From NCBI GenBank assembly GCA_022495995.1, contig JAFEMH010000161.1, forward strand, positions 186,001 through 250,000: DNA of 64,000 bases, in the 5' to 3' direction. The notes below the pieces were generated by a model. It did no database searches and was not told the origin of the DNA. It was given only the letters and a program-made list of their open reading frames with translations. This document shows positions 15,519-42,100 of this stretch, in pieces (the first letter of the stretch is position 1; the number at the start of each line of letters is the position of its first letter). The stretch comes from Adenophora triphylla var. japonica (lineage: Eukaryota > Streptophyta > Magnoliopsida > Asterales > Campanulaceae). The position numbers and the translations under genes are program-made.

Positions 15519-15539
15519 TACACCCTAAATGTTGTTGTG

Positions 15540-18860: not shown

Positions 18861-19199
18861 AATCAAAATTCTACCAAACTAACTTTATATTTCTGGTACC
18901 CAAAATAAATAGAAATAATTTAAAGGTGAAAAGTCATATGTGACACTGAAAGCAACCTTATACTATATTCGCTCCAAAAAATAGTTCCATTTGACAAGTC
19001 AAACATTTTAATATTGTGCTTTTGTTGTGTGTACATATTAGCAATATCTTGTTGTTCAAGAGAGAAGACAAATAAAAGAAAAAAAATTGCGGTACAAACA
19101 AAAGTAGGACTATTTTTCTGGAATGGAGGGGGTATTATACGATTGAGTGAAGAGTTTATAAACCTAGCTTTGAAGCCACCAGGTATATAGACATTGCTC

Positions 19200-19431: not shown

Positions 19432-19439
19432 CATTGCTC

Positions 19440-20653
19440 ATTCCCTAATCCCTACGCAGGGGCCCTTTATGCGATTCTATCTAGACACTCTTGGTACCAT
19501 ATCATGACTTAGATGGAAAATAGTTGTGTTGGTTGTTCAATATCTTTCTTTAAACTATAAATCAGTGGCAGATACTCCATCAGAAGGATCTGAATCCGTC
19601 CAGTGTCGGCATATTGATCTTATGCATGCATCATTTGGAGGCTGCTGATGCCATAGTCCTTTTACTAATAAGATCTGTAAAGTTTGATTTCATACCATTA
19701 ATTCGTTTTAGAACTCCATGAATGCATTTGCCTCTCTGCGATAGTGGTACGCAGTTTGTACGAAGACCTAATAGGACTGTTTGGGACATCTGTATTAAGC
19801 AATTTTGTCAGCCTTTTTAGTGTTTTAAAGTAGCAAGTATACTATAAGAAAAATAAGCTTAAATTAGGAGCTTCTTATATTGACATGTCCCAGATATTGT
19901 AATTAATCATCTGCCATCACCCAGAGTAATATCAGTCTTATTTATTTAAGATGTTAAAAACTTTTCTGTAGCAGGTTAGGTAGTTTGACTTCTTCTGTTA
20001 CTTATTGCACTCATTTCCCTTTTCCTCTTGTGGCTGTCGTGGCTAAATTTCATTGGATATGGCGTTATTTTTTTTCATTAATAAGTTGGATACATGCAAT
20101 CAAGCTTCCATATGGTAGTTGCTAGACCTACACGACTCTTCAATCTGTATTGCTGAAAAACAAAGCAATGCATTTATTATGGAGTACTGGGATTCCCCAT
20201 GTGCAGCTAGTGTTGATATGCTTACCCAACATATTGCCAGTTCAATGAAACTTAAAAGTCTTAAGCAATTACTACATCGTATCGATATTTATCTAACAAC
20301 CTCATGAACATAAGAACTTTGGCACTTACATTGTTTATTAGCCTTACAATTTTTAAACTAGGTCACTTCTTTCATATATTTTCCCATTGAAGGGTCACCT
20401 TCAAGTTTGAAATATTGTCTTCAAGGGTATTTTAGAACTTATGAAGACTGTATGTGAAGGTCTGTGTGTATAGGCATATAAATGCGCATCCATATGTACA
20501 CACATTGCACATATTGCTTCTATGGTCATACCAATTCATGTGTTTGAGATTAATATAAATGTGTGTGTGTGTGTGGGAAATTTTGTAACTCCAGAAAGAG
20601 TGATGCTTTAAAGTTAGCTTGAATATTCTAAATTTTTTCCCTCATAAAAACTA
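19440..20653. other. Intergenic DNA without recognised gene
   Basis: No protein family recognised. A 62-codon frame at 20119-20307 (47706-47894 in copy 2) is preserved in both copies but has no known motif. A TG microsatellite lies near 20560-20575. Confidence 0.45.
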
Positions 20654-20925
20654 CTCCCTCCGTCCCACTTGAAACTTAAAAAAAAAGGGTTCAAATATTA
20701 AGGAGAGGGTTGTTTTTATTATAAAATATAGAAAGTGGGGTAAGGTGTTGTGAGTATAGAAAGTGGGTAGGAGAGAGGAAGTGGGGTAGAGAATAGTAAG
20801 TGGATTGTTGTTGTGAGTATGACATGTGGGGCCCATTGAACAAAGAAATATTAAAAACTTTCTATTTTGGGATTTGAAGCTTAAAATGGGACAACCTTTT
20901 TGGGTAATTTTTTGAAATTTAAAGT
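20654..20925. mobile_element. Stowaway-like MITE truncated at the duplication breakpoint
   Basis: Starts CTCCCTCCGTCCCACTTG after TA. The right end is missing: sequence identity with copy 2 stops at AAATTTAAAGT (20925), and the final GGGACGGAGGGAG is absent. Confidence 0.85.
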
Positions 20926-21368
20926 AGATTGCTATTAATCAATCCTACTCAAATAAGGATTGTGAACAGTTATAATCCTCATAGGATTATAACCTTATCT
21001 AATATCTCACACACTTTCTTATACAATATGGATTATACAATGCTATGCCTATAAATACAACTCATAATTCACATTATAGGGTTAATCTATTTTTGACTCT
21101 AAACTATTGTCAATTGATTTCTCTCTCTAAACAAAAATACTTACTCTCACGCCGGAGGGCCTTCGCCGGTGAAGCCCGACTTAATTTACGTGTTTGTTCT
21201 TCTTTTTCAGGCAATTCAATCATACAGGATACAACCTGTCACTGAATTTGGACTGAATTTGGACTGATCCAAACGTTTTTGGCAACATTAGTTTGTTCCA
21301 TTGTCGGGAAGCGATTCGAAACACCCATTGAATAGCTTGAAAATTTTTGCTCTACTCTTCTAATCATA
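20926..21368 (+). mobile_element. LTR and leader of a retrotransposon remnant
   Basis: Contains a TATA-like TATAAATACAAC near 21050, a CTCTCTCTAAACAAAAATAC stretch and a GCCGG...CTTCGCCGGTGAAG hairpin, arranged like the promoter and R region of a plant LTR. A partial antisense relative is at 7979-8132. The remnant begins exactly at the segmental-duplication breakpoint, so its left end may be truncated. Whether it is gypsy or copia cannot be decided from this. Confidence 0.5.
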
Positions 21369-21962
21369 ATGGAAGACGGACATACCACTAGTGTTACTCC
21401 TGATCCGGATAATATTCATATGGAGGAGACTCAAGGCAACACTATGACTGCTTTTCCTTTTCCCAATGGGGAACTGTCTCCTCCTCTGCCATTGATTAAT
21501 GGGCTGTCAACCCTATTAATGAATCTACTTTATAGGGGACAACCAATAACTAAGGGAACGCTGCCAAACCCTCCTCGTCATCGGCGTCGAGGGAGACCTG
21601 CAGGCAGCCAGACGGGGAGGAACACCGCCCATGGGGAATTGGGGCTTCCCCCCCCCCTCCCACATGTTGATCACAGAACTCTACTGTATCAACAGATGAA
21701 AACTTTGCAATGCATTTATAAAATGCAAAATGTCTTGCTACAATTAGATCCTGAACATTCTCTGGTTGGATTCATGAGGTCTACGAGGACTGAAAATTCC
21801 CTTGTAGGGCAGAGTCAGGTTGACAGGCGTGATTGTCAGGGGAATAGAGAAAATCTTTCTTGTGGTCAACATCCCCTCACTGTGACATCTCCGGTAGATC
21901 CGGACAAAACTCCCAAGATGTCCCTACTCGTCATAAGATACATGGGAATGTCCAAATTTTAA
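21369..21962 (+). CDS. Gag-like or unknown retroelement protein, 197 aa
   Basis: ATG at 21369 follows the LTR-like leader by a short distance, as a gag gene would. The protein is Pro-rich, with the basic stretch RHRRRGRPAGSQ at residues 70-81 (an AT-hook-like GRP core) and a hydrophobic LLYQQMKTLQCIYKMQNVLL region at 105-124. I recognise no gag, zinc-knuckle or protease motif. The frame ends without joining a pol region, so it is probably truncated. Confidence 0.4.
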   Translation: MEDGHTTSVTPDPDNIHMEETQGNTMTAFPFPNGELSPPLPLINGLSTLLMNLLYRGQPITKGTLPNPPRHRRRGRPAGSQTGRNTAHGELGLPPPLPHVDHRTLLYQQMKTLQCIYKMQNVLLQLDPEHSLVGFMRSTRTENSLVGQSQVDRRDCQGNRENLSCGQHPLTVTSPVDPDKTPKMSLLVIRYMGMSKF

Positions 21963-22440
21963 CGACTCACATACAATCAATAATCAACGTTGTCACCACC
22001 CGGCCATCACCGCCACTCCTACCCCTCCCCACCCATTGTCGCCACCAATATCACCATCACCACTACAACCGATGCATCCAGTATCTCGAAAAATTACAAA
22101 ACGATAAATTTGACAAGAAATATGCATGATAACAATTCCAAAGAATAAGGGAAGATAAGTTTGGTGGTTAAAGAATGAGAACCACTGGATATCAAACTGA
22201 AGGACTTCTTGGACAGTGGGGGTATAGTGAAAATGGTAACTGGTCTGGCTTCTGTTATTCAAGAAGACAAACCTTAGTACTAATATTCTGCCATTACTAT
22301 AATTAATGGAGTAGTTAATTTTATTTTTTTTAATGTATAATAAAGTTGGTTTCTTTGTTTGTTTAATCATTGAATATTGAATAAGGCCATGTAGTGGCGA
22401 AGCCGCCTGAGAGGCACCGGGTCACTTGCCCTTTTATTTT
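21963..22440. other. Low-complexity intergenic DNA
   Basis: A CCACC/CATCACC-rich patch (21995-22075) and AT-rich DNA follow the gag-like frame. Nothing else recognised. Confidence 0.4.
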
Positions 22441-22590
22441 TGAGAAATGTCAGTTATCTCTAAATTTTGAAAAATGTCAATAAATATGTTACTTTTATCT
22501 ATTTCCTTATATTTTTGAGAAATGTCATTTATCTCTAAATTTTGAAAAATGTCAATAAATATGTTACTTTTATCTATTTCGACCCCGTAT
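22441..22590. repeat. 75-bp tandem repeat, two units
   Basis: Two nearly identical 75-bp units beginning TGAGAAATGTCA and containing AAAAATGTCAATAAATATG. Confidence 0.9.
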
Positions 22591-23330
22591 TCAAGCTTCG
22601 TTTGTTTTGCGTAACATAACATGCGGAAAATAATTTCCTGTAAAATGTTTTTCGAAAAATGAATTTCCTGTAAAATGTTTTCCGAAAAATGAGATAAACA
22701 TGTTTTCGGCTGTTTGGTAAGGAAAATGTTTTCCGAAAAAAATTTCATGTGTTTAATGAAATATTTTTCAATAAAAACACAATTTGAGATAATTTGAGTG
22801 ATGGTTGTGAGGGGGGCATGGGTGTGGTGGTGAGTAGAGTGGGGTGGGGAGTTGTTAAAAATAATTTTTAAATGATTAATTTTTTTTTTACCCGATGAGG
22901 GGTGGGGGGCAGGGATGGTGGTGGTGAGTGGAGTGGAGTGGAGTGGAGTGGGTGTGGAGTTGTTAAAAATCAATTTTAAATGATTAATTATTTTTTTGAA
23001 CCGACGTGGGGGGGTGATGGTGAGTGGAGTAGGGTGGGGAGTTGTTAAAAATAAATTTTAAATGATCAAAAAAAACTTGACCCGTGGGTGGGAAAACATT
23101 TTTCGAAAAATGTTTTATGTATGAAAAGTTAGGTGTGTGAGAGTGTTACCGTTTTTCGGAAAATATTTTATTTAGGAAAAAATCGTAAGTCATTTTACGA
23201 CGGAAAGGGGGAAAACTTTTTTCCCATTTTTCAGTGTTTGGTTTCCCATTTTTCGATGCTTACCAAACATCGAAAAATGTGGAAAACGTTTTCCGAAAAG
23301 CATTTTACGACAAATAAACGGAGCCTTAAT
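22591..23330. mobile_element. Harbinger-like foldback element
   Basis: Outer ends GCTTCGTTTGTTTTGCG (22594) and CGACAAATAAACGGAGCC (about 23327) are inverted relatives of the TTA-flanked MITE at 50333-50520. Arms are full of GGAAAATGTTTTCCG-like palindromes. The centre carries three degenerate units of GGGGAGTTGTTAAAAATAA...ATGATTAAT with GGTGGTGAGTGGAG runs. Confidence 0.6.
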
Positions 23331-24177
23331 TTAGGTAAAATTTGTACTATAATCTCATTTTGACACTCTTTTATTCCAAATTTTTATATGATAAGTATAA
23401 AAAAAATTTCAATTTTTTTTTACCCTTTTACAAATATTTATGGATTCCCCACTGAGACCATGTATTTATGTCGGTAGAAAAGTTTATGAGATAATAAGAT
23501 TACAGAGTGAAAAGTATTGATTTATTTGTGTTGACTTTGTAGTTCACTGTGACCGCTAGGTCATCCCTAAATAAGAAAATTGTCATATTTTTTTTTTTTT
23601 ATATCCAGGTTCCAGTTTTGCCGGACTAATCCTGGACCACCAGGTACCTGTCCCTCAGTATGCTGATGGAGGTAAATCGCGGGATGTGCCCTATGCAGCC
23701 AGGGTGGCAGTACCCCTTATACTACAGAGCCCCAAGGGAGCCCTCCTACAAGGCATTTACATCACTCTTACATCACCACCGATTGCTCCATGCTTCCCGC
23801 CGAGGCAATTGCATCACTCTTACAACACACCGCCGCTCCACTGCCTCGCCAAGATTCGAACTCCCCACACTGAAGATACAAGCCCAGCAATGCTGCTTCC
23901 TTAACTGCACGGATGTGCCCCGGAAGGCTCCAAAGGACCCCTGAAATCCAAGATAGAAATTAAACCACAGAGATACCCTTTGAGAAAAATTGAACCGGTG
24001 ACCTCCCCTTCGGGAGGCCACCAACATACCACTGGTCATATTTTTATTGTGATATAAGCTACTTATAAACAAATAACGCATTCCTAATGAATATTGGCAA
24101 TACCACTACGCGTTCGTCTCAATAACAATGATTATAGGGGCTCCGTGCTAAATTAAATGTAAGACCCTTAATGTATA
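23331..24177. other. AT-rich DNA and a SINE-like block
   Basis: About 23600-24020 is a GC-richer dispersed-repeat block whose left edge is the inverted form of the tail seen at 60600-60640. It contains tRNA box-B-like strings (GATTCGAACTCC, TTGAACCGGTGACC). I could not define its ends. The rest is AT-rich without genes. Confidence 0.35.
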
Positions 24178-24465
24178 CTCCCTCCGTCCCGACCAAAAAG
24201 TTTCAAAATGAGTTTGGCTCGTAAATTAAGGAAAGTGATGTAAGAAAGAGAAAAAGTTTAAATATTGTGAGTATGAAAAATTAAATAGAAGAGAGAATGA
24301 GTGGAAGGAATAGTTAGGAGAGAAAATGTTGTGAGTGTAAAAGTAAAATAGGAGAGAGAACGAGTGGGTGGGATAGTAATAAAAACTTTCCTTTTTTGGG
24401 TTGAGACATTTTAAATGGGCCGTCCAAAATAAAAAATTGAGACATTTGGAGCGGGACGGAGGGAG
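24178..24465. mobile_element. Stowaway-like MITE
   Basis: 288 bp between TA sites. Starts CTCCCTCCGTCCCGACC and ends GCGGGACGGAGGGAG. Confidence 0.9.
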
Positions 24466-24784
24466 TATATATATAATGAAAATGATTCAACCAAACTAGC
24501 AACAATACTTGCCATGGTATCACATCAAAATTTATATATTTAGTACTAGCATCTTTGGGCTAGGTTTAAGGAATAGAGGAAAATATGAGGCCCCATAAAA
24601 TTATGAGTCATGTGCAATTGGGCTCCTCGCACATCCTCAAAATCGGGCCTGACAACTACAACAAGACGGAGGGAACAAATATAACTATGAATATGCATGA
24701 TTATAAATTGAAAATTCTTGATGTTATTTCTCAACTACTAGATATATCAAGTGTTGCGTTTTTTTCTGATCCACCTTTAAATAA

Positions 24785-25119
24785 GGCTCCGTTTGTTTGG
24801 GGGAAAATATTTTTCGAAAAATATTTTTTCTATTTTTTGGTGTTTAGTAAACACTGGAAAATGAAGTCAACGAAAAACATATGAAAAATGAGCTTGATTT
24901 CTAAGGAAAATGACTTCCTTACCTCTACCTAAGGAAGTTGTTTTCCGGAAAACATTTTCCTCATTTTTCTTTGTTTGTATTGATTTTACCTTTAGATAGT
25001 TACTTTAATGAAACTACCAAACATCGGAAAATGTTTTCCGGAAAACATTTTCATTTTTCGAAAAATATTTTTCAAGAAATCATTTTTCGAGAGTTATTTT
25101 CCGTGAAACAAAGGGAGCC
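24785..25119. mobile_element. Harbinger-like MITE
   Basis: Ends GGCTCCGTTTGTTTGGGG and AAACAAAGGGAGCC, with inner GGAAAATGTTTTCCGGAAAA palindromes. Same family as 50333-50520. Confidence 0.65.
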
Positions 25120-25498
25120 CAAGTGTCATGTTTATAAATAAAGAAATTAATTTAATATCAGGGAGTAAATATTACTAGCAAAATACATGAATATAAACTG
25201 AAAAGTCTTGATGGGGATTCCTCAACTATACTACAGGTCAGCAAATCAATAATCCACCTAATTGTAGTATAAAATTACAAATTATCTAATTCAATTGACT
25301 AATTTGGTTTATTAATTTGAAGGAAAGTTAGAAACTTTCCCAGAAATGTCCAAAATGCAAAAATCCTATTAATAACTTTCTAAAACTTGACCTTATCTCC
25401 CTAAAGTCTTTCTTTAACCAATTGATAAATCTAGATATAAACCTAACATGTTGCAGTATGTACATTCAAACTTTCTGGTTGTTCAAATTTCCCAAACA
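25120..25498. other. Upstream region of the ELC gene
   Basis: AT-rich with no clear TATA box. I see no other gene. Confidence 0.4.
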
Positions 25499-26503
25499 AT
25501 GGTATCAAATCCCTCGGTCCAATTCGTCGATACCGCTTTATTTAGCACTACCCCTTTCGAGCTTTCTTACTCGAATCGTGACCAGAAATGGCTAATACGA
25601 CAACAACTTATACAACTTGTTCAAGAATTTCCCACCCTTCATCCATCTATGGACATCTTTACTCACGACGATGGCACCACGGTCTACCTTCTCAATGCAA
25701 ATGGTACCCTTCATGTTTCCCACTCCTCGCCTCCGATCCCAATTCAAATTTGGCTCCATGAAAATTTCCCACTTGTAGGCCCCATGGTACACATCTCATC
25801 AAATTACCCTGACTATCCAATTCCTCATGACTATCCATTTGTTGATTCTTCTGGTGCAGTTGTATCCCCATATCTGATCATGTGGGACCACTCACGATGC
25901 AACTTATCTAGCCTTGTTCATAACTTGATCAAGTTATTTTCTCATAACCACCCTTTTTATAGCACTAAACAATCTAGTTCAACTCATCCTTCTCTAGTTT
26001 CAAAATTAGAGGCCATGGACCGCCTTACTTGCACGCTTCACTATGATATGACGGCCTCAATGCAAAACACTGCAGATGAAATAGAAGACTTATCGGTCCT
26101 TCAAGCTGAAATGGTCAACCGAGTTGACATGACAACGAGCATAATCATCGGACTAGAGCACGAGAGAACAAATCTAAAGGAAAGAGTGAGTGAATTAACC
26201 GAGCACGCTGATGTGTTGATGAATTGGCTAAGAGTTCATGATAGAAGTTGTAATGATATTATCATGTTAAAGGATGAAATTGAAGATATATTTGAAGTTG
26301 AGGGTAAGGATTCAAAATTGTTTTTGGATGGAAATGCAGAAGATTTGGCTATAGAAGATTTGATTGATGCATTGGATAAAGCTGTTGGAAAAGGAGTATT
26401 GACATTTGAAGTGTATATAAGACAAGTGAGGAACTTAGCCAGGGAGCAATTTTTTGTCAGGAATAAGCTTGTGAAGTTAAAATGCAACCAGGTCCTCTGT
26501 TAA
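25499..26503 (+). CDS. ELC/VPS23 (TSG101-like) ESCRT-I subunit
   Basis: Single-exon gene of 334 aa. An ATG 51 bp upstream (25448) is in frame, but MVSNPS at 25499 aligns with the usual N-terminus. Residues about 25-155 form the UEV domain: KWLIRQQLIQLVQEFPTL, FTHDDGT, then IQIWLHENFP and a PYLIMWDHSRCNLSSLV stretch; as in the family, no catalytic Cys is evident. Residues about 165-250 are predicted coiled coil. Residues 282-325 are the steadiness box (LAIEDLIDALDKAVGKGV, VYIRQVRNLAREQFF). ESCRT-I recognises ubiquitinated cargo at endosomes; ELC also affects cytokinesis in Arabidopsis. It is shorter than Arabidopsis ELC: the Pro-rich linker is nearly gone and the last dozen or so residues are replaced by NQVLC. 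An A-run lies about 100 bp after the stop. Confidence 0.88.
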   Translation: MVSNPSVQFVDTALFSTTPFELSYSNRDQKWLIRQQLIQLVQEFPTLHPSMDIFTHDDGTTVYLLNANGTLHVSHSSPPIPIQIWLHENFPLVGPMVHISSNYPDYPIPHDYPFVDSSGAVVSPYLIMWDHSRCNLSSLVHNLIKLFSHNHPFYSTKQSSSTHPSLVSKLEAMDRLTCTLHYDMTASMQNTADEIEDLSVLQAEMVNRVDMTTSIIIGLEHERTNLKERVSELTEHADVLMNWLRVHDRSCNDIIMLKDEIEDIFEVEGKDSKLFLDGNAEDLAIEDLIDALDKAVGKGVLTFEVYIRQVRNLAREQFFVRNKLVKLKCNQVLC

Positions 26504-26740
26504 CTTTTAAACGATTTCCTGATTATGTTAAATTACAGTTAAATTAAAGTTGGAGTGCAGTTGCTCTTATAGTATATTGTAATGTTTCCATTAACAGAAA
26601 AAAAAAAAAAAAAAGTAAACAAAAAAAGTAGGAAGTATTTTGGGACAAAGGGAGTATGCTAAAGCAGGAAAAAGAAAGCAAATTACAAACTGATTAAGGA
26701 ATCACGGTTAACTTATGGTTATGTTCTTTATTTCTTGTCT
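26504..26740. other. 3' flank of the ELC gene
   Basis: Contains an 18-nt A-run at about 26600 and one end of a Stowaway-like MITE (TTTTGGGACAAAGGGAGTA, 26638-26656). No gene. Confidence 0.5.
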
Positions 26741-27370
26741 AGCAGAAACTAATCGAGCTCCGTTTGATCTCCCAGAAGCAGAAGCTATATACGCCGGATG
26801 CGATCCTTAATAGTTGAACGAAAATTTATTCATTAGTCAAGCTGAAGTCAACAAGGGTACTAGCCTGAAGAGATTCCAACTTCGAGCTCGAGGATGTAGT
26901 TATCCGATAAAAAGACCGACTTGCCATATAACTTTGCAATGAAAGATAGATCCTTAAATAGCCTTTCTGACTCGGCCTGGCCCGGTCGCCCTTTGAATCT
27001 TCAGTAGGGCCTTTAGCACCTTCCCGGAGAACATCATTGAACGGGTAGATCAGATTGATTGACTATCTTTGTGAGACTGCTTATTCCGATTCACTCCAAA
27101 CTTTCCCGCTATCTTGTTGTCCGCGAAGCCTCAAACTTCAATTGGGCTAAACTAGAAGCACATTGGTTGCCTTCTGTGACTTTTTTGAATTGTTTTGAGC
27201 ATCCCCAACAAAGCGGATGCGGTTTGAGAGCGGGAAAAATGGCTTTTGTTTACAATCATTCGTAGAATGAATCAAAAAATTCTGATCATACATTTCGAAG
27301 AATTAACCTTTCTTCACTTGGGATCATATTGAAGGTTTTTGGACTCCTCCTGCCAAATCCAGTACACGTA
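26741..27370 (+). other. Organellar DNA insertion (nad1 and rpl22 fragments)
   Basis: 26743-26797 encodes [15 protein letters not shown], the signature of mitochondrial NAD1, then diverges. 26817-26950 encodes a piece ending [20 protein letters not shown] and [15 protein letters not shown] before a stop, a plastid ribosomal protein L22 (rpl22) C-terminal region. The rest to about 27370 is balanced-GC, non-repetitive DNA unlike its AT-rich surroundings and resembles mitochondrial spacer. A single transfer from a mitochondrial genome that already contained plastid DNA would explain both. Neither fragment is functional. Confidence 0.7.
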
Positions 27371-27454
27371 ATGTAAATTGATGAAAATTCAATAACCAAA
27401 GTGTAAGTACCCCGTCCTGGAAACCATCAACCTACAATCTCTCTCTCACCTAGC

Positions 27455-29276
27455 CTAACCAGATGGTCGTGAAGACGAAGACCCACCCCCATGCCTTTTC
27501 CGGGGAGGGCTGCTGCGGCATGTAGAAGATGCGAGCCTGAGCTTGGCAAGGTCCTTATGCAACTTCTTAATAACGCCCCGCAAGCCAATGTTCTGCCTCA
27601 CCACCTCCTCATAAGCCCCAATAGAAACCTGTACGTAAAAAAAAGGTATGCCAGCCAAAGAACCAAAAGGGACAAAATGGAAGAAACAACGCAACAGAAA
27701 TGAAATCTATACCGATGTAGCACTCGGGGGAACCCGGTATCGATCAGGGAGCTCCTCCGGCACATCAATCACACCTGTTCTGATCTCAAAATCCTGATCA
27801 ACATATGTATAAGTCCGATTCTCAATAACTGGATTGTAGATGCTGCTAGCACAAGGTGGAGGAGTTCTAGGAGCCTCCTTCAATTCTGCCTGCTCATCCA
27901 CCTGTTCACCCTGATCCTGATCTCGCGAACCACCAAAGCCCTGTGAAGTGAAATCATCATGAACCTCGCCCATGTCAATAAGGTCCATGGCATCAATCCC
28001 ATTTAACAGGTGATCCCTACCCTCTAGTTTATCTGGAGACAACATGTGGTGGGGCGGATCATGTGGGACCCAAGACATCCCATGGGCATTGTGCTGCCTA
28101 AATACTCTCTCCCCCAAGTACAAAGCATCACCGCTCAGACCTATCAGCAACCTCCGCTGTGCCGTAGCTTTAAGGGCATCCCTCATCACGTCATTCACAA
28201 TGTCATTCCAAGGGAAGACGTGATACTCAGTGCGGAACTCTCCACCTAGGATAGTCTTCAGCTGAGAGTACTCAAAAACCATCCGGGTCCTCTTTGAAGG
28301 TCTCCTTCGCGCATCAGATGCCCAGCGAAGCATGGCTGGGAAGGTGTTGCTAGGGAGAGTGGTGGTGAAATTGCAGAGACCAAGCACCTCAAAAGCCCAT
28401 GCCTGAGGACAAGGCAGCATAAAACATACTCCCTCCATCCCAAAATGAATGACCAAAAAAGTTTCAAATTTAAATTTGCTCTTGATTAGGAGTAAACTTG
28501 AAGATTGTTTGGTCATTCATTTTGGGACATAGGTAGTAATAATAAACCAGGAGAATGCTAAAACTTGAGGGAGAAAAAGGGAAAGGGTGTACCTCTAACA
28601 CAAACCCAAAGCAGTCAAAGGAGCTTGCCGAGTTCCTGCAACAGTGATCTAAAGCCCGGTACAACTCTGCCAAACCAGCTGCACCCCAAGCATAGTCACC
28701 CACAACGGAAAGGTCCTCAAGTGCTCCAAGAAGCGGGATCATCGCATTGGTCCCACCGTTGGCAAAGATTGTCTGAGATAACCCGTACCAAAGAAAGGCT
28801 CGAGCCACCTGCTCATTAGTAGCTTCACCTTGGCGATGTCTATCCAACAAATCATCAAATCGCTTACGAAGACGGCCAACCCGAACACCATACCCCTGCA
28901 GTATGTCGTAGATATGAAAGCCCAGCAGCCCATGCTGCCTATCCATGTCACCAATCAAGGTATTATCACAACACAAGGGTTTTCCCGCAATCCTCAAACC
29001 TGTCAACGCCGTAAAGTCTCCAGGAGTCACTGTCAGCTCTCCCCAGCTGAAATGGAATGAATGAGTAGTATCCCACCAATACTCTCTCAAAGCCTGAATA
29101 ATGGCCCCGCTCCTGGCCCCGCTCCTCTGCAACGAGTCATGACCACTCAGTCCATCAAAGAAGATGTTCAAGCCGGTACGGGTCACTAAATCCTTAGGCA
29201 CTGTAGGCAAGCTGGTCCACGCAGTGTAGGCCAATTTGCTTGATCCGCGAGAACAATGAATCCTCCCAACCGGAAA
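27455..29276 (-). CDS. Plant mobile domain exons of the fusion, copy 2
   Basis: These three exons alone support a PMD protein: 29276-28593, 28402-27713 and 27628-27455. The donor after FGFVLE reads GAG|GTACAC and the acceptor CCTCAG|GCATGG joins to AWAFEVLGL. The last junction is TCG|GTATAG to GTACAG|GTTTCT. Conserved PMD features include the FHFSWGELTVTPGDF block and the later MLRWASDARRR and FEYSQLKTIL stretches. The reading frame has a stop (TAG) directly before exon 2, which coincides with the proposed acceptor AG, so no start codon is available locally and an upstream exon is needed. A conventional annotation might stop here and call a partial PMD or 'phosphatase 7 long form'-like gene. 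Confidence 0.85.
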
Positions 29277-32200
29277 CTATATCAAGTCGCATAAAATAAA
29301 TAAATAAAGTCCTCCGCAATAGTTGAAAACAACTTAAACATAACCTAGCAGTTAAACTAGTACTCTATCCCAAAATGAGTGTCCCAACAAAATCAAATTT
29401 GCTCTTAAGTATATGATATTAATGATCCACGAATGCTCCAATAGCACAGTTAACTATATTATGGTGCATTGTATGAATGAAAGAATTAACCTTGTGTCTA
29501 CGTTAGAGAAAATAAAGCACGATAGATACTATCAGTCACGAGGGTACAGAATACCACATGCAGACTCCATAGTCATCAATGCATGCAGTTGACATAAACC
29601 CAGTAAGCACAATCGCCAAAGCTTAAATTTCATTGAGCAGTAGGCTGATTAAAGTTAAGATAAAAGTGTAGCACTTAAAAATTTCGAAAGACACTTGACC
29701 AATTGTAACAAAATGTAACCATCAGTTAGTGTTAGACAAAATCTTATAATAAGCACAAAATAAGTAAAGAATTACAATATATATATTGAAATACACATTA
29801 CAACAAAAAATTAAACGAGGAGAAACCGTAGGAACAATATATATATTGAAATACACATTACAACAAAAAATTAAACGAGGAGAAACCGTAGGAGAAAAAT
29901 CGTTTGATGATCTTCTTGATGTTATCCGAGTCGTGCGTGACACACTCTCCTAAAGACAAATTCGCCCCCTCACCGAGTTGTGCTTGAGATTGAACGGGAC
30001 GATTGCCTCCCAGGATGAAACGGATTGACCGGACGGTGGCTGCACAATAGTACCTCCGGCGAACTTAAGTTAGATGCTGGGACAATATCACCACTGATGT
30101 AATGCAAGAGGCCAAAGAAAAGACTACTCAATATGCTGCTAAATGGAGTGTTGAGATTATGGAAATCAGTGTGTCTTGTGTTTGTTGTTCTTCCCTTTGT
30201 ATAGTAGCCAAGGAAATCAAAACTGCTAGAAAATTAAAATCCTTTTTAATTTCCTTAATCACTGTATTTATTGCGGCGATTACCGAGTACATTGAAATCA
30301 TCGGTGGCGGCTCTTGGTGCCCAGTCTTTGCCCGGTGCCAGCAGCTGCGGTCCTCGGGCGCTGGCTGGTGGTGCCCGCGATCTTGGTCCTCGGAGCAGCT
30401 GGCTGGTGTCCGAGCTCTGTGGTGTCCACGCAGCTTTGGTGTCCGATTCTGATAGGTCGAGTTAAAAGAATGTAGAAAGTGGGCTAGCGCGAGTAGGCCA
30501 CTTTGGAGCTATATTGCCTCTATGCTCCACAATCTTACTCCCTACTAAAGTGTAGGAGTATATACACTGATATCATTTTACATTCCTTTCCAATGTGGGA
30601 TAACCACATTTCCCACTTTCAACCCATTTACTTTGAGCCTTAATATCTCATTCATCCCTCAACCATTTTGGACAAATGAGTATATGATTTCAACGTTCTC
30701 ATGGAGTAGAACACAACCCAACAATCAATTTGGTCATTTAACAAATAACTCATTTAGGAAATAATACATTATTTCCTTCAAACACACATATTTTTCCAAC
30801 AATCCCCCACATGAAGGAAATAATGAGGAAATGGTGATAAAGTCCGGCAGACGAAAACTTGCATACGAAGATGTGGGAATGCCCATTGAATCTTCGCTCG
30901 TACAAGCATATTTACTCTGCTCGCAAATTGATAGACGCCTTGATGTCCTTGAATCGTTATGTTTTTGTGTAGCCAGGTCGTATGCTTGACACAAGTAACG
31001 TCTAACATACTTCAATTCTCATAGCTATGTTCAATCGCGGCCACTGAACATACGCACAGTTGCGAGAGGGTCTAAGAATTGAGCATCAACACAATTCTCC
31101 TCGAAGTGGCCCCACTTCTCTCTCACATAGGTGATTTCTTAAAGGTAACCCGTATTACCCCGCTCGAATTTTCGACGCGTAAGAATCGTTAAAAGACATA
31201 GGCTTATCCTTGTCCTTTCGGGATGTCACCAATAGGAATAGACTTAGGGTTAATTCCCTCACAGTGACGCTACAAGTCTTTTAACAGTCAGGTGGTCCCA
31301 TTGAATCTAGTTCTTGGGATCTCCAGTCATCTAGATTGGATTTTCCGCTGTGTTTAACTTTTAAGAGGCTTAAGTCTCATTTCCCTCCGAATTTACAACT
31401 AACTCTCAATTTAACCCTTTGGTTAACGGATCCGTTTATCATTTGACCTCACATAGTCAAATTAATTGAAAGTAGTTCTCTAATGGTATTATGTCTTAGA
31501 CATATATGTCTAGACTACCATTACACATATTGCTATATGTCTTTTCAATCATAAATTGACTTTAGCAATATACCATCTTGCTAATACAAGCTTTATCCAT
31601 TTAATAAGTGTTAACTCAAATTCATTTAAATCCTAGCTTTTCCATATTGATCATTTCAAAAATTCCAAGAATATCCATCTAATGACTTGTTCAACAATGA
31701 GTCCATTAGTTTTTCTTGAATTTGAATCAACAGATCAAATTGACTAGAATTTTCCTTAGTTAACATATTGTTTTTGGATTTAATTAACAAAGAGATGTAG
31801 TCACTCTTGTTTAAATCCACACAATCAAACCTTTGATGTCCTCTTTGTACTTGTCTCAAGTCATACAATGACTTTAGCCCTTTTGACACCATTGCAAGTA
31901 CAATAACATTACATACTTCTAAAGTAGAAAATAGAAAACAAAGGGAAATCAAATAGTGAAAATGGCAGTATAGTCTAACAAAGCTCTTATAACTTGCAAC
32001 AAGTACTCATGGTCTCCTGCTAGTTATGAATCACAGTTAACATAAATCCAGTTTGCACAGTGTAAATTTGATGAAAAATCCATTACCAAAGGTCAAATCC
32101 CAACGCAATCACAGCATCTAATGTATTTACAGATGTCAAAACTGCAACACGCTTGGCCATTCAGAAACAAAATGTAACCATTTGTATGTATCAAGCAACA

Positions 32201-33330
32201 GTACATATTAAGGAGAAAGTTATAAAAAGAATCCTTCAAAAATTAAATCCATTGCTTAAATTTCTAACTTTTTGTCTCATCTCAACAGATGCACCCAAGT
32301 GCACTTAGATAATAATGTAATACACACCAGTACCTCCAGCTTATTCATTGCAAACAACTTGTTCAACGGAGTTATTCCCAACCAACTCTACTTTAGTAGT
32401 TTCAACATCATGGCTAGAGCAATCAATTTAATTTACATTCTTCTAAAGGAGAAATAGAAAAAAACAACTCAAATTGGATCAAGTTGTGTAAACTGATAAA
32501 TATGATCTAACATACTCCCTCTGTCCCAACATGAATGTCCAAAAAAATCTCAAATTTGCTCTTGATCAAGAACAAATTTGATATTTTTTTTGACATTCAT
32601 TTTGGGACGGATGGAGTAACTATTATAACTTGTCAGGGGAGTCGCTAGTTATGGCAGAGTTAGATCAATCAAGCTGACACACACCAACCAAGCTATGGCA
32701 CCTAATGCTAAGGCTTTTATATCCCTTTACTTTCCAAGTACTTTTAGTAATACTCCTTTTAAGAAAAGTGGGATCATTTGGGACTTCCATTTCAAAGGCA
32801 TTATTAAATGTGAACACTTCGTTATCTGGCTATTCTCGTAGTCACTTCATAAAAAGGGAATATGGGGATTACTCAAGCAAGATCTTTCTAATGTCTACAG
32901 TGTTTGAAAAGAAGGTCCAGACTACCAAGTCTTCATAGAGTCAACCACAAATTCTGCCAGAAATGTTTAAGGGTCTCATTTGCTTATGGAATACCAATGT
33001 TTAGACATTTATTTTTATTTTGGGATGGAGGGAGTACATGCTAAGCATAGTTAAAGTTGGTCATGGAACAAGAAATATGCTTAAAATTTAGCTAACAAAC
33101 ATCTGTCTAAACATTTTACCCGGGGAACGAATCCATTCAAAACACATGTCAAAACAAGTACAAACATAATTCAAGGGGTCAAGGAGCAAATCTATTACCT
33201 GGAGTCCGGCTCGAGAAGACCTGGAAACTGGCCTCTTCTTATCCTTATCCTTATCCTTGTTAGCAGAAGCTGCTGCTGCAGCCGCAGTAGTCTTTGCAGC
33301 TAAAAGCCCCTTGCCTCCCTTTCCTGCCAT
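27455..33330 (-). CDS. H2A.Z-tail::plant mobile domain fusion gene, intact copy
   Basis: Four exons on the minus strand: 33330-33199 (44 codons), 29276-28593 (228), 28402-27713 (230) and 27628-27455 (57 plus stop). All junctions are phase 0 with GT-AG ends, giving about 559 aa. Exon 1 encodes an H2A.Z N-terminal tail. Exon 2 begins FPVGRIH, the start of the H2A.Z fold, then switches to plant mobile domain (PMD, MAIN-like) sequence, seen in WWDTTHSFHFSWGELTV at about residues 111-127 and LTGLRIAGKPL soon after. Exon 3 carries the rest of the PMD and an acidic, Gln-rich tail; exon 4 ends basic and Ser/Gly-rich (SPPRKRHGGGSSSS). PMD proteins such as MAIN and MAIL1 are nuclear and linked to transposon silencing; others travel with transposons. 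Intron 1 (3.9 kb) holds a copia-type LTR and MITEs, and intron 2 a Stowaway MITE. The exon model is inferred; transcription is untested. Confidence 0.7.
28429..28536. mobile_element. Stowaway MITE in PMD intron, copy 2
   Basis: Counterpart of 865-972, with TA flanks. Both copies carry it, so it inserted before the segmental duplication. Confidence 0.85.
29774..29893. repeat. Exact 60-bp tandem repeat, copy 2
   Basis: Same two-unit repeat as 2208-2327, unchanged after the duplication. Confidence 0.95.
30149..30801 (-). mobile_element. Copia-type LTR, copy 2
   Basis: Counterpart of 2584-3231 with the same ends and purine tract. The GC-rich segment 30296-30455 differs strongly from copy 1, although both flanks are almost identical. 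Confidence 0.55.
32515..32616. mobile_element. Stowaway MITE, copy 2
   Basis: Counterpart of 4947-5048, with TA flanks. Confidence 0.9.
33199..33330 (-). CDS. H2A.Z-type first coding exon, copy 2
   Basis: 44 codons from ATG at 33330 to the donor CAG|GTAATA at 33199/33198. It starts MAGKGGKGLLAAKTT, continues with an Ala run, KDKDKDKK and ends SRSSRAGLQ. This is the N-terminal tail of plant H2A.Z, and the intron falls where plant H2A.Z genes place it, directly before FPVGRIH. The ATG lies 8 nt after an acceptor (CAG|GCTCGAAA), so there is a leader intron with its donor near 33606 (CAG|GTACCT). Apart from the FPVGRIH stub at 29276, I find no other H2A.Z fold exon downstream: no HLQLAIRGDEEL-type sequence. 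Confidence 0.9.
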
Positions 33331-33920
33331 TTTCGAGCCTGTTCGTAAAAATCCATAAAACCATTGAAAATACCAAAAATACCTTGAAATCTTCACCAAA
33401 TAAACAAAATTAAAGCTGTTAACTAGGAAACCCAGGACCAAGAAAAATCAGAAAACAAAGAACAACTCAGATCTGTACATGATTGACTCCGGGGAAGAAG
33501 TCAATCGAGAGCACAGTTCAACAAATTGAACACCATAGAACAAATCAACAAAAGGGAAATCAGATCTATACAAAAATAAGATCGAAAGGGATAAAGAGAG
33601 AGGTACCTGAGTAAAGATTTGGAAGCGAGAGGGATGAAATTGAAAGAGAGGTAGGGGAAGGGGTGAAAGAGAAAGCAGAAGAGGAAATCGTAGGTATGAC
33701 GATATATGTAATGGCGGTTCGATTTTTGGTGGGAAAACAGATTTTGGTGTTTCGAAATTTCCCCCTTCTTGTCCAAAATTGGCCTTTGAATCTCCCAAAT
33801 TTTTTTTATGTACCCCTGCACCAGATTTTTTGACTTCTCGACTACAGATGGGATACGGTTAAATACATGGAACAATAAATACAGAAAATCAACAAAATTA
33901 TCAAAATATCCATTTATATA

Positions 33921-34204
33921 CTCTCTCCGTCCCGCTAATATTAGCACAAACACTGTTTGCGCGGGAATTAAGGAATATGATATTTTAATAAAATGTTGTG
34001 AGTGTAAAAGAATGAGTGGAGAGAGAATGAGTGGAGGGTGTAATAAATTATAATGGTGTTGTGAGTATTAAAATAATGTAGGAGAGAGAATGAGTGGGGT
34101 TGGGTGAATATTTTATTAATATAAAGTTTCCTTTTTGGGAGTGTGCGGATATTAGCGGGACGCCCAAAAAGAAAAGTGTGCTAATATTAGCGGGACGGAG
34201 GGAG
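33921..34204. mobile_element. Stowaway-like MITE, copy 2
   Basis: Counterpart of 6352-6635. Confidence 0.9.
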
Positions 34205-35549
34205 TAATTTTTTCCCAATTCCTCGTCCAGATTCACGCCCAAGTTGCCAGATTTTGCTTTCTTCTTCGACTAATCCCAGCCGTCGGATCCAACTTCCTCC
34301 CCTCGCCGGATCTGTCTTCGCCTCCGGCAAGTCTCACTCACCGTTGTTTTCTTCTCAGATGAGTCATCGGTCACCGTCGACGACGGTTCAAACAAACTTA
34401 TAATGTACGTGTTTTTCTACTAGTAAACTGTAAGTTTAGATTTGATTATTTTTCTTGAACCAAATATGTATTTGAAATCAGATCTGAGACCTCCTTTATC
34501 AACAACCCAATCCAATCCAATTCAACAATATAATATTATTTCTCTCTCTTCCACATATATCATTTACAATTCAAACCAATCTTCTTCATTTTTTAACTTT
34601 ATTCACAATCCAATCCAACCAACCAACCCAATTCAAATATCAATTATTCTTTATTTTTATTACATATATTATTAACCTCATTTTTCTTATTTTTTGTCTT
34701 GTAATAAATTTATAAAATATTTTATATTACTAAATTTATATATTTATTATACAAAAATACGATATATAAAAAATATAAAAATGAAGTTACATTTGAAATT
34801 CAAATTCACTTTTTATAAATACATCACAAAAATAAAATTAAAATACATAAATTGAAATTTCATATTTAATTATTATTACAATCCACCAACCAATGGTTGG
34901 TGGACATGTGGCAAGAATTGGATCACAATCTTGGATTGGACCACCAATCCGGATCACCAAGTTGAACAATCTGCATTTCATTTTATTTTTTATTTTTTTC
35001 CAGAAAGCCTTGTCGTTTTCCTACGATCTAGGTAGGAGGTCACCAATAAACAAGGTCGATTTCACATAATAGATTTCGAATATAAAGCCTTCACATGATG
35101 ATTATGATCCTCGAAAAGAATATCCAGTACCCATTCTTTAATTAAGTTTTGATTGGGGATGTTGGGCTGTGAACTTTAAGTAATCTCATTGTGTGCTGAG
35201 ATAATCTACTCCATCCATGAAATGTAGTAGCTAAAGCAATGATGTTTGGTGGTGATTGTGGCGGCTGTAATGGTGTTGTGTTTAGTGTGGTGGTGGTGAT
35301 AGTGAGATGACGGTGTGGTGGTGGAGGTGGCGCCGTAAGCCCTTTGTAATTAGAGGCTATGACGGGCAAGGGCAGAGTTGGAATTTTTCGTTCCCTGTAT
35401 TTAGTATTTACCCTACAAATGATATGCCTATGGTTTCAAACTTTCAATCTTTGGCAAAATTCCATTTTATTTTTATTTTTTTCATAAACCAAATTCCATT
35501 TTAAACTATTATGTCTCAGCGATTGAATAGCCTAAAACAGAGAAACAAA

Positions 35550-35705
35550 CACGTAAACTAAGCGGGCACTGCTTCGGCGTGAGAGTCAGTATTTGATTTG
35601 TGAGAGAGATAAATCAATTGACAAGAGTTTAGAGTCGAAAAGATAATGTACCCGATAATGTAAATTATGACTTGTATTTATAGGTATAACAATGTATAAT
35701 CCATG
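35550..35705 (-). mobile_element. Antisense LTR fragment, copy 2
   Basis: Counterpart of 7979-8132. Confidence 0.6.
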
Positions 35706-35761
35706 TTGAATTGGATTGCTAAGAGGGAGGGGGTGAGGGTGAGGGTTGAGAATTGTATAAT

Positions 35762-36416
35762 GATGATGATAATGATTCAAATTATGAAGAAAATATTGGG
35801 TCGCTTCTAAATGAAGATCGTGACGATGAATATGATGATTGCAGTAGTCCTATTGATGATAGCGATAATGAGGGTGGTGTTGGGGTGAGGGAAGATTTGG
35901 GAATACATCTGGTTGCTTACGAAGAACCATAACATCATGTGTACGAGAGAACAGATTATCAATTTTATCGTGATATTTGGGAAGGATCAGAGATTTATGA
36001 TAATAATCAATATAACTTTGCTGATTGGGATGCAGAACATAATGAAATTGCCAAAGGTATTCGCTTTTCAAAGAAGACAGAGGTGCAACATAAAATAAAG
36101 ATGTTTCATATTAAAAAAATCAGCGCTTCAAGGTAAAACGAAGCACAACTCGAAAGTGGACTATTGAGTGTTTGGTGAAAGATTTTCCGTGCAATTTTTA
36201 TGTGAATATGAGTTTGAAGAATGTTGGGTATTGGGAAATTACCAAATATAAGGGTTCTCATTCTTGCTTGGGAACAGAAATTAGCGAAGATCATCAAAAC
36301 CTAGATGCTAAGTTCATAGGGCAAGAAGTTTTGGAACTTGTTAAGGTCGATCCCGAGTTGAAGATTGCAGTTGTGAAGGCGACCATAAAAAATGCCCATG
36401 GGAAGGATGTTTCATA
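35762..36416 (+). pseudogene. MULE transposase relic, copy 2
   Basis: Same relic as 8190-8844, with the same in-frame TAA and frameshift, ending at the same junction with antisense PMD DNA. The damage therefore predates the segmental duplication. Confidence 0.8.
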
Positions 36417-37514
36417 CCACCGTTGGCAAAGATTGTCTGAGATAGCCCGTACCAAAGAAAGGCTCGAGCCATCTGCTCATTAGTAGCTTCATCTTGGCGA
36501 TGTCTATCCAACAAATCATCAAATCGCTTACGAAGATGGCCAACTGGAACACCATACCCTCGCAGTATGTCGTAGATATGAAAGCCCAGCAGCCCATGCT
36601 GCCTATCAATGTCACTACCTCCGGCCCTGACCCATCTTTGCCCTATCACAACACAAGGGTTTTCCCCAAACCTCAAACACCGTCAACGCCGTAAAGTCTC
36701 CGGGAGTCACTGTCAGCTCTCCCTAGCTGAAATGGAATGAATGAGTGGTATCCCACCAATACTCTCTCAAAGCCTGAATGATGGCCCCGCTCCTCTGCAA
36801 CGAGTCATGACCACTCAGTCCATCAAAGAAGATGTTCAAGCCAATACGGGTCGCTAAATCCTTAGGCACTGTAGGCAAGCTGGTCCACGCAGTGTAGGCC
36901 AATTTGCTTGAGCCGCGAGAACGTTGAGCCTTTGGAGGAAGCTGCACAAGTAAACACATCAGAGGCACGTTACTACTCATGTCAAATCAAGATTGTTCTC
37001 ATGTCCAAAAGTACTTGAAAAGAAGATCCAAACTACCAAGCCTCCACAGTCTACCACAAATTCTACTGGAGGTGTTCAAAGATATCATTCGTTTATGGAA
37101 CACCATCTGTCAGACAACATGGTACTCTAACAATTACGGTAGATAATTTCTTTGTTTGTCAGTGAACCCTTTTCAATGAACCCTAAAGTATTGCATGCTA
37201 CACCCATAGTTGACAGTTGGTCGGGAAAGGACAAAAAATATCCTTACAATTTAGATAAAGCACAATGGTTTCGACATTATCCAGGTATAGAAAACTCTCC
37301 CACTGTTTTTTCTTTTTGGTTCACCATCCATAAGCACACATAGCATGAATTAGTCACAGAACAAATTGATTCATAACAGAAGTCAAAACAATTACGCACA
37401 CAACTTCAGGGAGACAGGTAACAAATCGATTACCTGGAGAGCGGCTCGAGAAGCCCTGGAATCTGGCATGTTGTTATCCTTATCCTTGTTGGCAGCGGCT
37501 GCCTTTCCTGCCAT
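36417..37514 (-). pseudogene. Older, truncated H2A.Z-like::PMD fusion, copy 2
   Basis: Exon 1 is 37514-37434 (27 codons) and exon 2 starts at 36941 after TTGTGCAG. Compared with copy 1 it differs near 36617-36652 and has a stop-creating change at about 36724, so the frame is broken at different points in the two copies. Confidence 0.75.
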
Positions 37515-38170
37515 TTTCACACCTGCACACACACACACAAAAAAAAGGTTATCAATTGCCCATTGGAAATGTTAAAACTACCTTGAAATTTCCTCCGAAC
37601 AAAACAAAATCACAGGATTAATAATGTAAGAAGTTTCAAGTATTCTTGAAGAATTATTCAGTAAACTTGAATGCTATAATATAGTTCAATCGCGTAATCA
37701 AAGGACTCCAAGACCCTCCAATTCTATTGGGCATTTTATCGAACACCTCTCGTGCATCAATGAAACAGCCACACTTGCCGTAAATTTTAGATGCCCTGTT
37801 GAGCAAAAACACTGGGGAAGTTGGAGAGAAGAGGTAAGGTGAGGTGAGATGAGATTCGAGCTTCGGGCTTCAGCAATCAACAATGGCTAAAATTTGGAAG
37901 CGGGAAAAGAACAAATTGAGAGAGAGAGATAGGCACATAAATTTTGAGATGCCTGAAAATGGAGGTTTGATTTTGCTGGGAAAACAGATTTTCGTGTTTT
38001 GAAATATTCCCTCTTTTTTAGCGTAAGATTCAACTAAATTTCTGCAAAAAAAAAAAAAAATTTTTTTTTTTTTTTTTGCATTTTAGTTGTTGCTATTAAT
38101 ATGCATTCAAACAATTACTACTGTTATTAATATTGGTAAAAAAAAACTACTCCGTTCATTCTATATAATA

Positions 38171-38469
38171 CTCCCTCCGCCCCAGAAAATGCTTCACCAT
38201 TTTAGGTTTGGCACGCAAATTAAGGAAATAGGTGGGAAGAAAAAATGTTGTGAGTGTAATTTAAAAATAGGAGAGAGAATTAGTGGAGAAAATAGTAAAT
38301 TTAAAAAGTGTTGTGAGTGTAATAGTGAATTAGGAAAGAGAATGAATGGAGGAAATAGTTAGTGGGTATAATAGAATATTAATAAAACTTTTCCATTTTA
38401 GGAAAGGTGAAGCTTCAAACGGGACGCCATTTTGGGTAAAGGGTGAAGCATTTTCTGTGACGGAGGGAG
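38171..38469. mobile_element. Stowaway-like MITE, copy 2
   Basis: Counterpart of 10599-10897. Confidence 0.9.
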
Positions 38470-39160
38470 TATTTGAGTAAACGACTTTTCTAACCTTCGT
38501 ACTATCCGAGATTTCATATCAACTTTCGTATTATTGAAACAACAAATGTAACATACGTATTATTGATTTATTAGTAAAGCTAATCAAAATTGTTAAAAAT
38601 GTTAATGAAAATTAAAGAACATTAACAACTGAGTTAGATGCAAGATTCATCACATACCTAACCTTAAACTTTTTTACGTATTGATCACTATTTTTTTTTT
38701 TAATACTAGTAGTATTTATTTAACAACTATCATGATAAATTTTAAATGCTAACATATGAAACTAGAATAAATTGTTAATGATTTTGTATATGAAAAAAAA
38801 TTGAAATTTAATATATGGAAAATGTTTAACAATTATTAGAGATTTCTTAAATAATTTTACTTTTTCTTTCAAAAAATAAATATATATTTTTACTTTCTAA
38901 TTTTTTTTGGCATAAAAAAATCATTTTTTGCTTTTTTTTTCTTCCCTTTTTTTTTTCTTCCCAAGTTTTGGATGTTTCACTCTTCATTGAGATTTTTTTT
39001 TTCACTTTCCATCCCCAAGTTTTGGATGTCCCACTCTCCTTTTTTTGAGGTTTTGTTTCTTTTCACTTTCCCCCATTAATCAATTTTATATAAGCTTAAA
39101 AACTATTTGAACCCTAAATATTGATGTGATTTAAAATTTGCATTGAAAAGTAAATAATCA

Positions 39161-42100
39161 TCTATCTATATATTAAAGCAGGTCATCCTATGAACAGTTA
39201 AAGCGCCAAAAATTTCGTCAAAATTTAAGTGGCACTTTTGTAATTACTCTCTTAAGTTGTAACAAATTTGAATCAGAACATTAATTCCTTTTATATATAT
39301 AGAGAATGTATAGAGATATAGAGAGAGAGATAGCGATGTGGGATTAAATCAACCAATGTTCTTACGTTTTGTTACAAAAGGAATTAATCCCATATCGCTA
39401 TCTCTCTCTATATATCTCTATATATTCTCTATATATATAAAATTTTGGCAAATCAACTCAACTGATTGACCGATCAAAAGCATGCCTCCTGACCGATCCA
39501 AACCAAGTAAATTGGTTGATCGGTCCAAAGCATGTGACTTGGTTGACCCATCCAAAGCATGTGACTTGGGATACCATGTTGCGAGTTTAACAGGTCACAA
39601 GGAGTTTAACCGGTCACAAGGATCGGTTGTGACAAGGATCGATAAATCATTGACATGGTGATCGGTCAATAATAAGTGGATGACCGATCGATCCAAGGTG
39701 ACCGATAAATCATTGACATGGTGATCGGTCAATAATAAATGGATGACCGATCGATCCAAGGTGACCGGTCAATAATAAATGGATGACCGACCGATCCAAA
39801 CCAGGCACAATTGATCCAAACCAAGAGGTACAAATTCGCCTCACTTTAAATTACAAAATAATAATTATTAATAAAGAAAATTAAATAGAAATATTATTTT
39901 TTCATCTCTAATAAATACTTTACAAAATATACTTCTATAAAAAATTATAAACTTCATTTCAAAAATAAATATTATTTTCGACTCAAAATTAATAACCAAT
40001 TTTAAAATGTGAGTTACTTTGGAATTTATAAGTTTAGAATGAAATTATTTGAGAAAAAAATCAGTAATTTTGCCATCAGTCGGTTGAGATTCCATGACAA
40101 CCGATTTTCTCTTGATCAGTTTCTTCTTTGGCTCAGTCGGTTTCATCTTCTTTTGATTTACTGGTCAATAAAGCCGGTCTTTGCCATCTCTGGCTGCTGA
40201 CCGATCCAACAGGCCAATCCGCCAAGTAAATGTAAATCTTGATCGGTCACCAAGTAAACTCTTGACCGGTCACCAACTATAAATGATTTACCGATCCTAC
40301 CAAGTAAATGTTTTTTTGCTGACCACTCTTGACCGGTCACCAAGTATAAATAATTTACCGATCCTTCCGTCTCACATTAAATTACAAAATAATAATTATT
40401 AAGAAAGAAAACGAAAACAAAATATTATTTTTTTCATCTCAAATAAATATTTTACAAAATATACTTCTATAAAAAATTATATTATTCATTTCAAAAATAA
40501 ATATTACTTTCGACTCAAAATAAATAACCAAAAAATAATACTATATTTTTTGTCCAAACAAATGAGTATTACTTCCTTCGTCCCAATGAATATTTTAAAT
40601 ATTAATATTACTTCATTCGCCTCAAAATATAGTCAAAATCAAAAAGAAAAAGAAAAAAAGAAAGAAAGAGAAAAGAAAGAAAGAAAGATACAGAAACAGA
40701 GAAAGAGAAGGAAAATCAAAATGTAATCAAAATAAAAAAAGAAAAAGAAAGAAAAAAAAAGGAAAGAGAAAAGAAAGTAAGACGAAGCGAGAAACGAGAG
40801 AAAGAGAATAAAAATAAACAAACAATTACAGGCTTGGCTTCTTACCGGTTGATCATGGATTACCGATTCTTCAAATCGGTAAAGTGTGTGTGTGATCGAT
40901 CTGATTCGAACCGGTCACAACCGATTCAAACTAAACGTATAAATTTCGTCTCACTTTAAATTATAAAATAATAATTATTAATAAAGAAAATTAAATAAAA
41001 ATATTATTTTTTCCATCTCAAATAAATACTTTAAAAAATATACTTCTATAAAAAATTATATTATTCATTTCAAAAATAAATATTATTTTCGACTCAAAAT
41101 GAATAACCAAAAAATAATACTACAAAAACTAATAGAAATATTATTTTTTTCTATCTCAAATAAATATTTTTAAAAATATACTTTTATAAAAAATTATAAT
41201 TCTCATTTCCAAAATAAATATTACTTTCGACTCAAAATGAATAATCAAAAAATAATACTACATTTTTTGTCCAAAAAAAAATGAACATTACTTCCTTCAT
41301 CCCAATGAATATTTTTAAAAATAATATTGCTTCATTTGCCTCAAAAATTAATGTTTGTAATGTTAGTGTCTTGGTTTCAATATATGTCATTAATTTTATA
41401 AACAAATGAAGTAATATTTTATAAAATATTCATTGGGACAAAGATAGTAAATTATTTTTTTAGATGATGTAGTATTCTTGCGTAAAAATTAATGTTTATA
41501 ATATTAGTGTTTTCTCTCAGAAAATGAATATTAATTTTTTAGACAAGTAAAGTAGTTATTTTTTTTAAATGTTCATTGAGACAAATGAATCAATTTTTTT
41601 TTATATAAAAAATAGTATTAATTTTGGGACGAAAGTAATATTCATTTTTTAATTGAAAGAATTTTTTTATATGTCAAAAAATAAATAAAATGAATATGGT
41701 TTCCTTCGTCTCAATGAACATATAAAAAAAGAATACTACTTTATTCGTCTAAAAAATTAATGTCATCTTAATGTCATATTTTGAGACGAATACACTAACA
41801 TTACAAACATTAATTTTAGTGGTGAATGAAGTAGTATTAATTTTTAAAATATTCATTGGGATGAATGAAGTAATGCTCATTTTTTTGGATAAAAAATGTA
41901 GTATTATTTTTTTGTTATTCATTTTGCGTCGAAAGTAATATTTATTTTTGAAATGAATAATATAATTTTTTATAGAAGTATATTTTTTAAAGTATTTATT
42001 TGAGATTTGAAAAATAATATTTCTATTTAGTTTTTTTTATTAATGATTATTATTTTATAATTTAAAGTGAGACGGAGTTTTACCTTGATTTGATTTATTT

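Follow-up and report, generated by a model that had tools for sequence, protein, structure and literature searches.

In a 64,000-nucleotide stretch of the Adenophora triphylla var. japonica genome (contig JAFEMH010000161.1, here C161, positions 186001-250000; hereafter the window), we observed a chimeric structure in which the 5' part of a histone H2A.Z gene runs in frame into an exon coding for a plant mobile domain (PMD). This chimeric structure is real in the assembly, which comprises 2.48 Gb in 8432 contigs; the window has 35% G+C and no N. With moderate confidence, we interpret it as a young chimeric gene, in which a copied H2A.Z 5' part was joined in frame to a PMD exon and later duplicated, with one copy open. 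In favour of this are an open frame of 559 codons, GT/AG splice sites, an intact parent on the same contig and a homology that ends at the junction. The anatomy of the gene, its parent, the breakpoint, an older fusion and, in this assembly, the duplication can be read directly from the sequence. A functional fused protein would be a reasonable but unproven product.

Structure of the chimeric gene and its H2A.Z parent

The open copy, chimera B, has four exons (Table 1) of 132, 684, 690 and 174 nt, the last including the stop and each divisible by 3, with exon 2 spanning 29276-28593. Its splicing is predicted from sequence, with phase-0 joins at GT/AG sites. In the protein, residues 1-44 are the H2A.Z tail, the next seven (FPVGRIH) correspond to the start of H2A.Z exon 2, and the PMD and a C-terminal tail follow. 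This agrees with the original prediction in terms of the 44-codon first exon (coordinates, phase and splice dinucleotides), the PMD exon that opens with FPVGRIH after an AG, and the later introns that join in phase to give 559 residues with no stop. Beyond that prediction, the analysis found the second copy, the older fusions, the retroelement-like insertion in intron 1 and the parent gene.

An intact H2A.Z gene, the parent, is located left of the window, with exon 1 at C161:176893-176762 and its second and last exon at 173312-173019. The 98 residues of this last exon are identical to those of a protein from Arctium lappa in the collection compared. Exon 2 of the parent reads TTTCCGGTTGGGAGGATTCAT and then CGTCACCTC; chimera B has the same 21 bases, followed by TGTTCTCGC. 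From the promoter to the end of the intron, parent and chimera B share six collinear blocks, with identities of 96.7, 96.6, 95.1, 96.4, 90.7 (140 nt) and 96.0% (99 nt). Together these have 73 mismatches and 16 gap openings in 2473 columns, a count that leaves out an 86-nt piece further upstream (90.7%) and small repeat matches. Since the blocks run from the promoter to the junction base, a chance origin of FPVGRIH is excluded. Homology stops at 29256, 21 nt into exon 2, so that the break lies inside the second H2A.Z exon and before the histone fold, as had been proposed. After FPVGRIH, no convincing H2A.Z match was found in the window. An intact parent and a homology ending at the breakpoint are the pattern of duplication and fusion. 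The introns of parent and chimera B each carry insertions missing from the other.

The insertion in intron 1 of chimera B presumably corresponds to the 3' part of a long terminal repeat (LTR) retroelement, in the sense of the gene. It includes an LTR-like stretch of the same sense, lying 0.45 kb before exon 2, from which, as from any other alternative start, the PMD could be transcribed, leaving the H2A.Z exon outside the mature message. We consider this improbable: the H2A.Z donor and acceptor are both intact, and in the translation no in-frame ATG precedes residue 111 of exon 2, so the start must come from an upstream exon, in the proposed gene that of H2A.Z. With the alternative start, the protein would lack the beginning of the PMD unless another exon provided an ATG.

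Across this genome, the 5' end of one H2A.Z gene is far commoner, with 22 long matches, than the H2A.Z body, with 6 places (at least 94% identity). At C5644:42136-44100, C4076:35585 and C1559:291302, the H2A.Z promoter region, exon 1 and a partial intron 1 are joined to a different, repetitive partner. A shared-base join of the H2A.Z 5' end to a repetitive partner was seen in all 3 cases inspected by sequence and in 15 of 19 by position. Beyond the 3' end of chimera B, an open reading frame at 25418-26503 (+) contains UEV and Vps23 core domains and codes for an ESCRT-I protein of the Vps23/ELC type.

Tandem duplication and older fusions

The window contains two units, A and B, of an approximately 28-kb head-to-tail duplication, with facing ends 215 bases apart. 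The units are 98.2% identical in their main block of 24 kb and 94.7% identical in another of 3.4 kb. The chimera 5' region has 0 mismatches and 3 gap openings in 999 columns between the units. In copy A, a frameshift in the PMD exon, either real or a consensus error, leads to a first stop after 126 codons. The divergence between units is patchy, with no mismatch or gap in 9 of 49 bins of 500 bases and 46 mismatches in one bin, owing to either gene conversion or uneven consensus quality. This patchiness, and the fact that the copy A frameshift is one cluster, would fit tandem copies that are uncollapsed haplotypes or a mis-join, an artefact that is highly improbable given that the 29256 junction is present in both units, the parent is a separate locus and the unit ends lie head to tail at short distance, and one that would in any case leave the fusion itself in place. 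Dense direct and inverted repeats are found at 39289-42093 and 55141-59462, and some of their parts recur in both.

Each unit also carries an older, decayed fusion, with an 81-nt H2A.Z-like exon 1, a 492-nt intron and the junction frame RAALQ-LPPKAQR-SRGSSK. Both are in frame, the unit B fusion with a stop after 99 codons and that of unit A with a stop after 134. In short blocks, their H2A.Z part shows 76-86% identity to both parent and chimera, compared with 91-97% between parent and chimera. Thus, the older fusion probably predates the split of parent and chimera, unless its sequence changed at a far higher rate. There is a weak PPR-like match (E 0.006, below cut-off) at 37654-37869 (-), in the 5' region of the unit B older fusion.

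The two fusions also seem to differ in how they were made. In a PMD paralogue on contig C5363, the exon starts with VVNDSFC-TRGSAK after a phase-0 acceptor, a layout that by eye is that of LPPKAQR-SRGSSK in the older fusion. The exon borders match and the preceding intron ends are alike (TTGATTTGACAT...GTGTTTACTTG), followed by seven codons before TRGSAK. The corresponding intron end of a relative on contig C461 is similar too (GTGTTTACCTGATAG), these intron-end likenesses being judged by eye over about 50 bases. On this evidence, the older fusion seems to have retained the native PMD exon start and to have linked the two introns, and the newer one to have been made inside H2A.Z exon 2.

In terms of timing, the synonymous divergence (dS) between the PMD of chimera B and those of the older fusions is 0.087-0.099, whereas chimera and parent differ by about 3%. 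It thus seems that the PMD copies had separated before the newer fusion came about, in which case this fusion did not simply result from copying its neighbour when H2A.Z was duplicated. It possibly arose from a sister PMD copy, or its 5' half may have been converted by the parent sequence.

Table 1. Features of the chimeric gene, its duplicated copy and the older fusions (window positions).
Feature	Position	Strand	Basis
H2A.Z-derived promoter-proximal and 5' untranslated region, chimera B	33331..33713	-	within block 33713-32849, 96.7% identity to parent
Predicted leader intron, chimera B	about 33606-33339	-	splice sites read by eye
Exon 1, start codon and 44-residue H2A.Z N-terminal tail, phase-0 GT donor	33199..33330	-	43 of 44 residues as in parent exon 1
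Intron 1, 3.9 kb, both ends H2A.Z-derived	29277..33198	-	collinear blocks 95-97% identical to parent intron
Retroelement-like insertion in intron 1, absent from parent	29727..31873	-	gap between parent blocks (31874 / 29726)
LTR-like stretch in this insertion	30801-29730	same sense as chimera	TG...CA borders
First 21 nt of H2A.Z exon 2 (FPVGRIH), after H2A.Z acceptor	29256..29276	-	as parent exon 2; homology ends there
PMD part of exon 2	28593..29255	-	PF10536, E 1.7e-24 (28594-29276)
Intron 2, with repeat matching many contigs	28403..28592	-	repeat at query positions about 1158-1282
Exon 3, second PMD part and linker	27713..28402	-	43% amino acid identity to C5363 paralogue over region
Exon 4, 57-residue C terminus and stop	27455..27628	-	reading frame
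Unit A, head-to-tail duplication	1..20925 (starts about 7.0 kb left of window, -7009)		self-comparison
Unit B, head-to-tail duplication	21140..48517		self-comparison
Copy A exon 1	5631..5762	-	identical to copy B
Copy A exon 2, frameshifted	1029..1710	-	clustered changes, two 1-nt gaps at about 1480-1459 (net 2-nt deletion)
Copy A exon 3	149..838	-	1 mismatch in 690 vs copy B
Copy A exon 4	from 62, runs past window edge	-	follows exon 3
Older fusion, unit B	36417..37514	-	H2A.Z-like exon 1 37514-37434, 492-nt intron, PMD exon from 36941
Older fusion, unit A	8838..9936	-	exon 1 9936-9856, PMD exon from 9363

The PMD, its relatives and selection

The 559-residue protein matches PF10536 (E 6.8e-30; 104.8 bits, curated cut-off 34.9) over profile positions 18-286 of 347, and the C5363 and C461 relatives cover positions 15-285. 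With E values up to 1, a Pfam scan of this protein found the PMD alone, and no histone fold. The domain is thus placed in PF10536; matches named MAIN-LIKE are 28-32% identical in pairwise comparison only, and membership of the MAIN/MAIL-type clade (PMD-C) is a candidate assignment, not established.

The C5363 gene is the one closer paralogue found, with 58% identity over exon 2 and 43% over exon 3. At the DNA level, with 40 of 2721 candidates scored, the matches listed for the chimera PMD comprise four places in C161 and, at 67%, one paralogue. Also among the matches listed, 147 of 150 relatives belong to a high-copy family that is 45-48% identical to the chimera PMD and mostly stop-free. Two members were read, with short flanks only, and the family is perhaps transposon-borne. 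The C5363 paralogue may likewise have an unusual 5' neighbour, since upstream of it (C5363:44501-49000) there is what we take to be a fragment resembling a two-pore potassium channel. As for capture by a Pack-MULE or another DNA element, a scan of 22000-44000 for inverted arms of at least 40 nt gave 13 pairs, none recognised as element ends around the chimera; shorter or diverged ends would escape it, and no search for target duplications was made.

The original prediction had proposed a comparison of non-synonymous (dN) to synonymous divergence, which for the PMD part was obtained against the older fusions, B2 in unit B and A2 in unit A. A patch disordered in the older copies, picked after viewing the alignment, was left out. 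Chimera B and B2 then have 9 synonymous and 7 non-synonymous changes (96.7 and 320.3 sites; dS 0.099, dN 0.022), for a dN/dS of 0.22 (binomial p 0.004). For A2 the changes are 8 and 7 (97.7 and 325.3 sites; dS 0.087, dN 0.022), for a dN/dS of 0.25 (p 0.011). The two tests are not independent, because A2 and B2 are themselves duplicates. With the patch kept, dN/dS is 0.37 for B2 and 0.50 for A2 (p 0.015 and 0.10). Against C5363, the chimera has values of 0.10 (exon 2) and 0.20 (exon 3), at saturated dS.

Furthermore, in a simulation of neutral decay that assumes one fifth of indels keep the frame, the probability of an intact frame is 0.0056 if the fusion dates to the parent split. Approximations give 0.08 at half that age and 0.28 at a quarter. 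Taken with the dN/dS values, this makes it probable that the PMD has been under constraint, which may have continued after the fusion, and it counts in favour of the proposed young gene.

Proposed function and comparison with known systems

We propose that a working H2A.Z gene was copied, with its promoter region, 5' untranslated region, exon 1, intron 1 and 21 nt of exon 2 retained. The copy would have been fused in frame to a PMD exon, taking the place of roughly seven initial codons of this exon together with all upstream sequence. A head-to-tail duplication of the array would have followed, giving two copies, one of them open. It had been claimed that the PMD gene gained a promoter, leader intron, start codon and Lys-rich tail, and this is supported in part: the copying of the H2A.Z 5' end stands, and we infer from it that an H2A.Z-type promoter would drive an mRNA spliced at 33199/29276. 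The promoter region and leader come from a gene expected to be broadly expressed, and the main effect would most likely be on the place and strength of PMD production.

The product would be a PMD protein whose N terminus is basic, flexible and rich in Lys and Ala. Most likely, the H2A.Z tail would serve as a start codon and a basic, possibly nucleus-directing leader, in which the stretch KDKDKDKKRPVSRSSR could act as a nuclear import signal. Entry into nucleosomes in the manner of H2A.Z is not expected, because the product has no histone fold. A more far-reaching view, which we regard as doubtful, is that one PMD lineage took the H2A.Z tail and promoter twice, the second time renewing a decayed fusion, since an H2A.Z-timed PMD with a modifiable tail was useful, e.g. 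in engaging tail enzymes or readers and steering a silencing-related domain.

The locus appears to give a two-step example of the transfer of a chromatin gene's promoter and N-terminal tail to a transposon-related domain. A span of about 51 kb takes in the parent, the decayed earlier fusion, the open later one and its disrupted sister copy. If the gene is transcribed, it poses the direct question of whether a fold-free histone tail can redirect a PMD protein.

Duplication with exon fusion and a retained parent is a known kind of event. Among 310 young fusion genes in four Oryza species, parental duplication followed by fusion is named as the main pattern (PMC9199173), as in the chimera; expression was measured there, whereas the chimera is known from its sequence. 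What is unusual is that a histone tail is combined with a PMD, and that this seems to have happened more than once within a single lineage. From histone H2A.Z itself, the chimera takes the promoter region, leader, tail and seven exon 2 residues, without the fold, so the product would not be a histone.

As for PMD proteins, PF10536 is common to the chimera and to MAIN and MAIL1 (PMC5418596); the matches named MAIN-LIKE are only 28-32% identical. PMDs are described from genes and Gypsy elements and as fusions with MULE transposases (PMC5418596). MAIN and MAIL1, together with PP7L, have roles in silencing and gene expression, and PMD fusions with protease, kinase or metallo-phosphatase domains are mentioned (PMC7156037). 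Arabidopsis MAIL3 and grapevine VvMAIL2.2, described in the same source, join a PMD to a PP7-type phosphatase domain and so, like the chimera, combine a PMD with an unrelated part. Their PMD belongs to PMD-C and the partner is a phosphatase domain, whereas the chimera combines a PMD of unassigned clade with a 44-residue histone tail and its promoter region.
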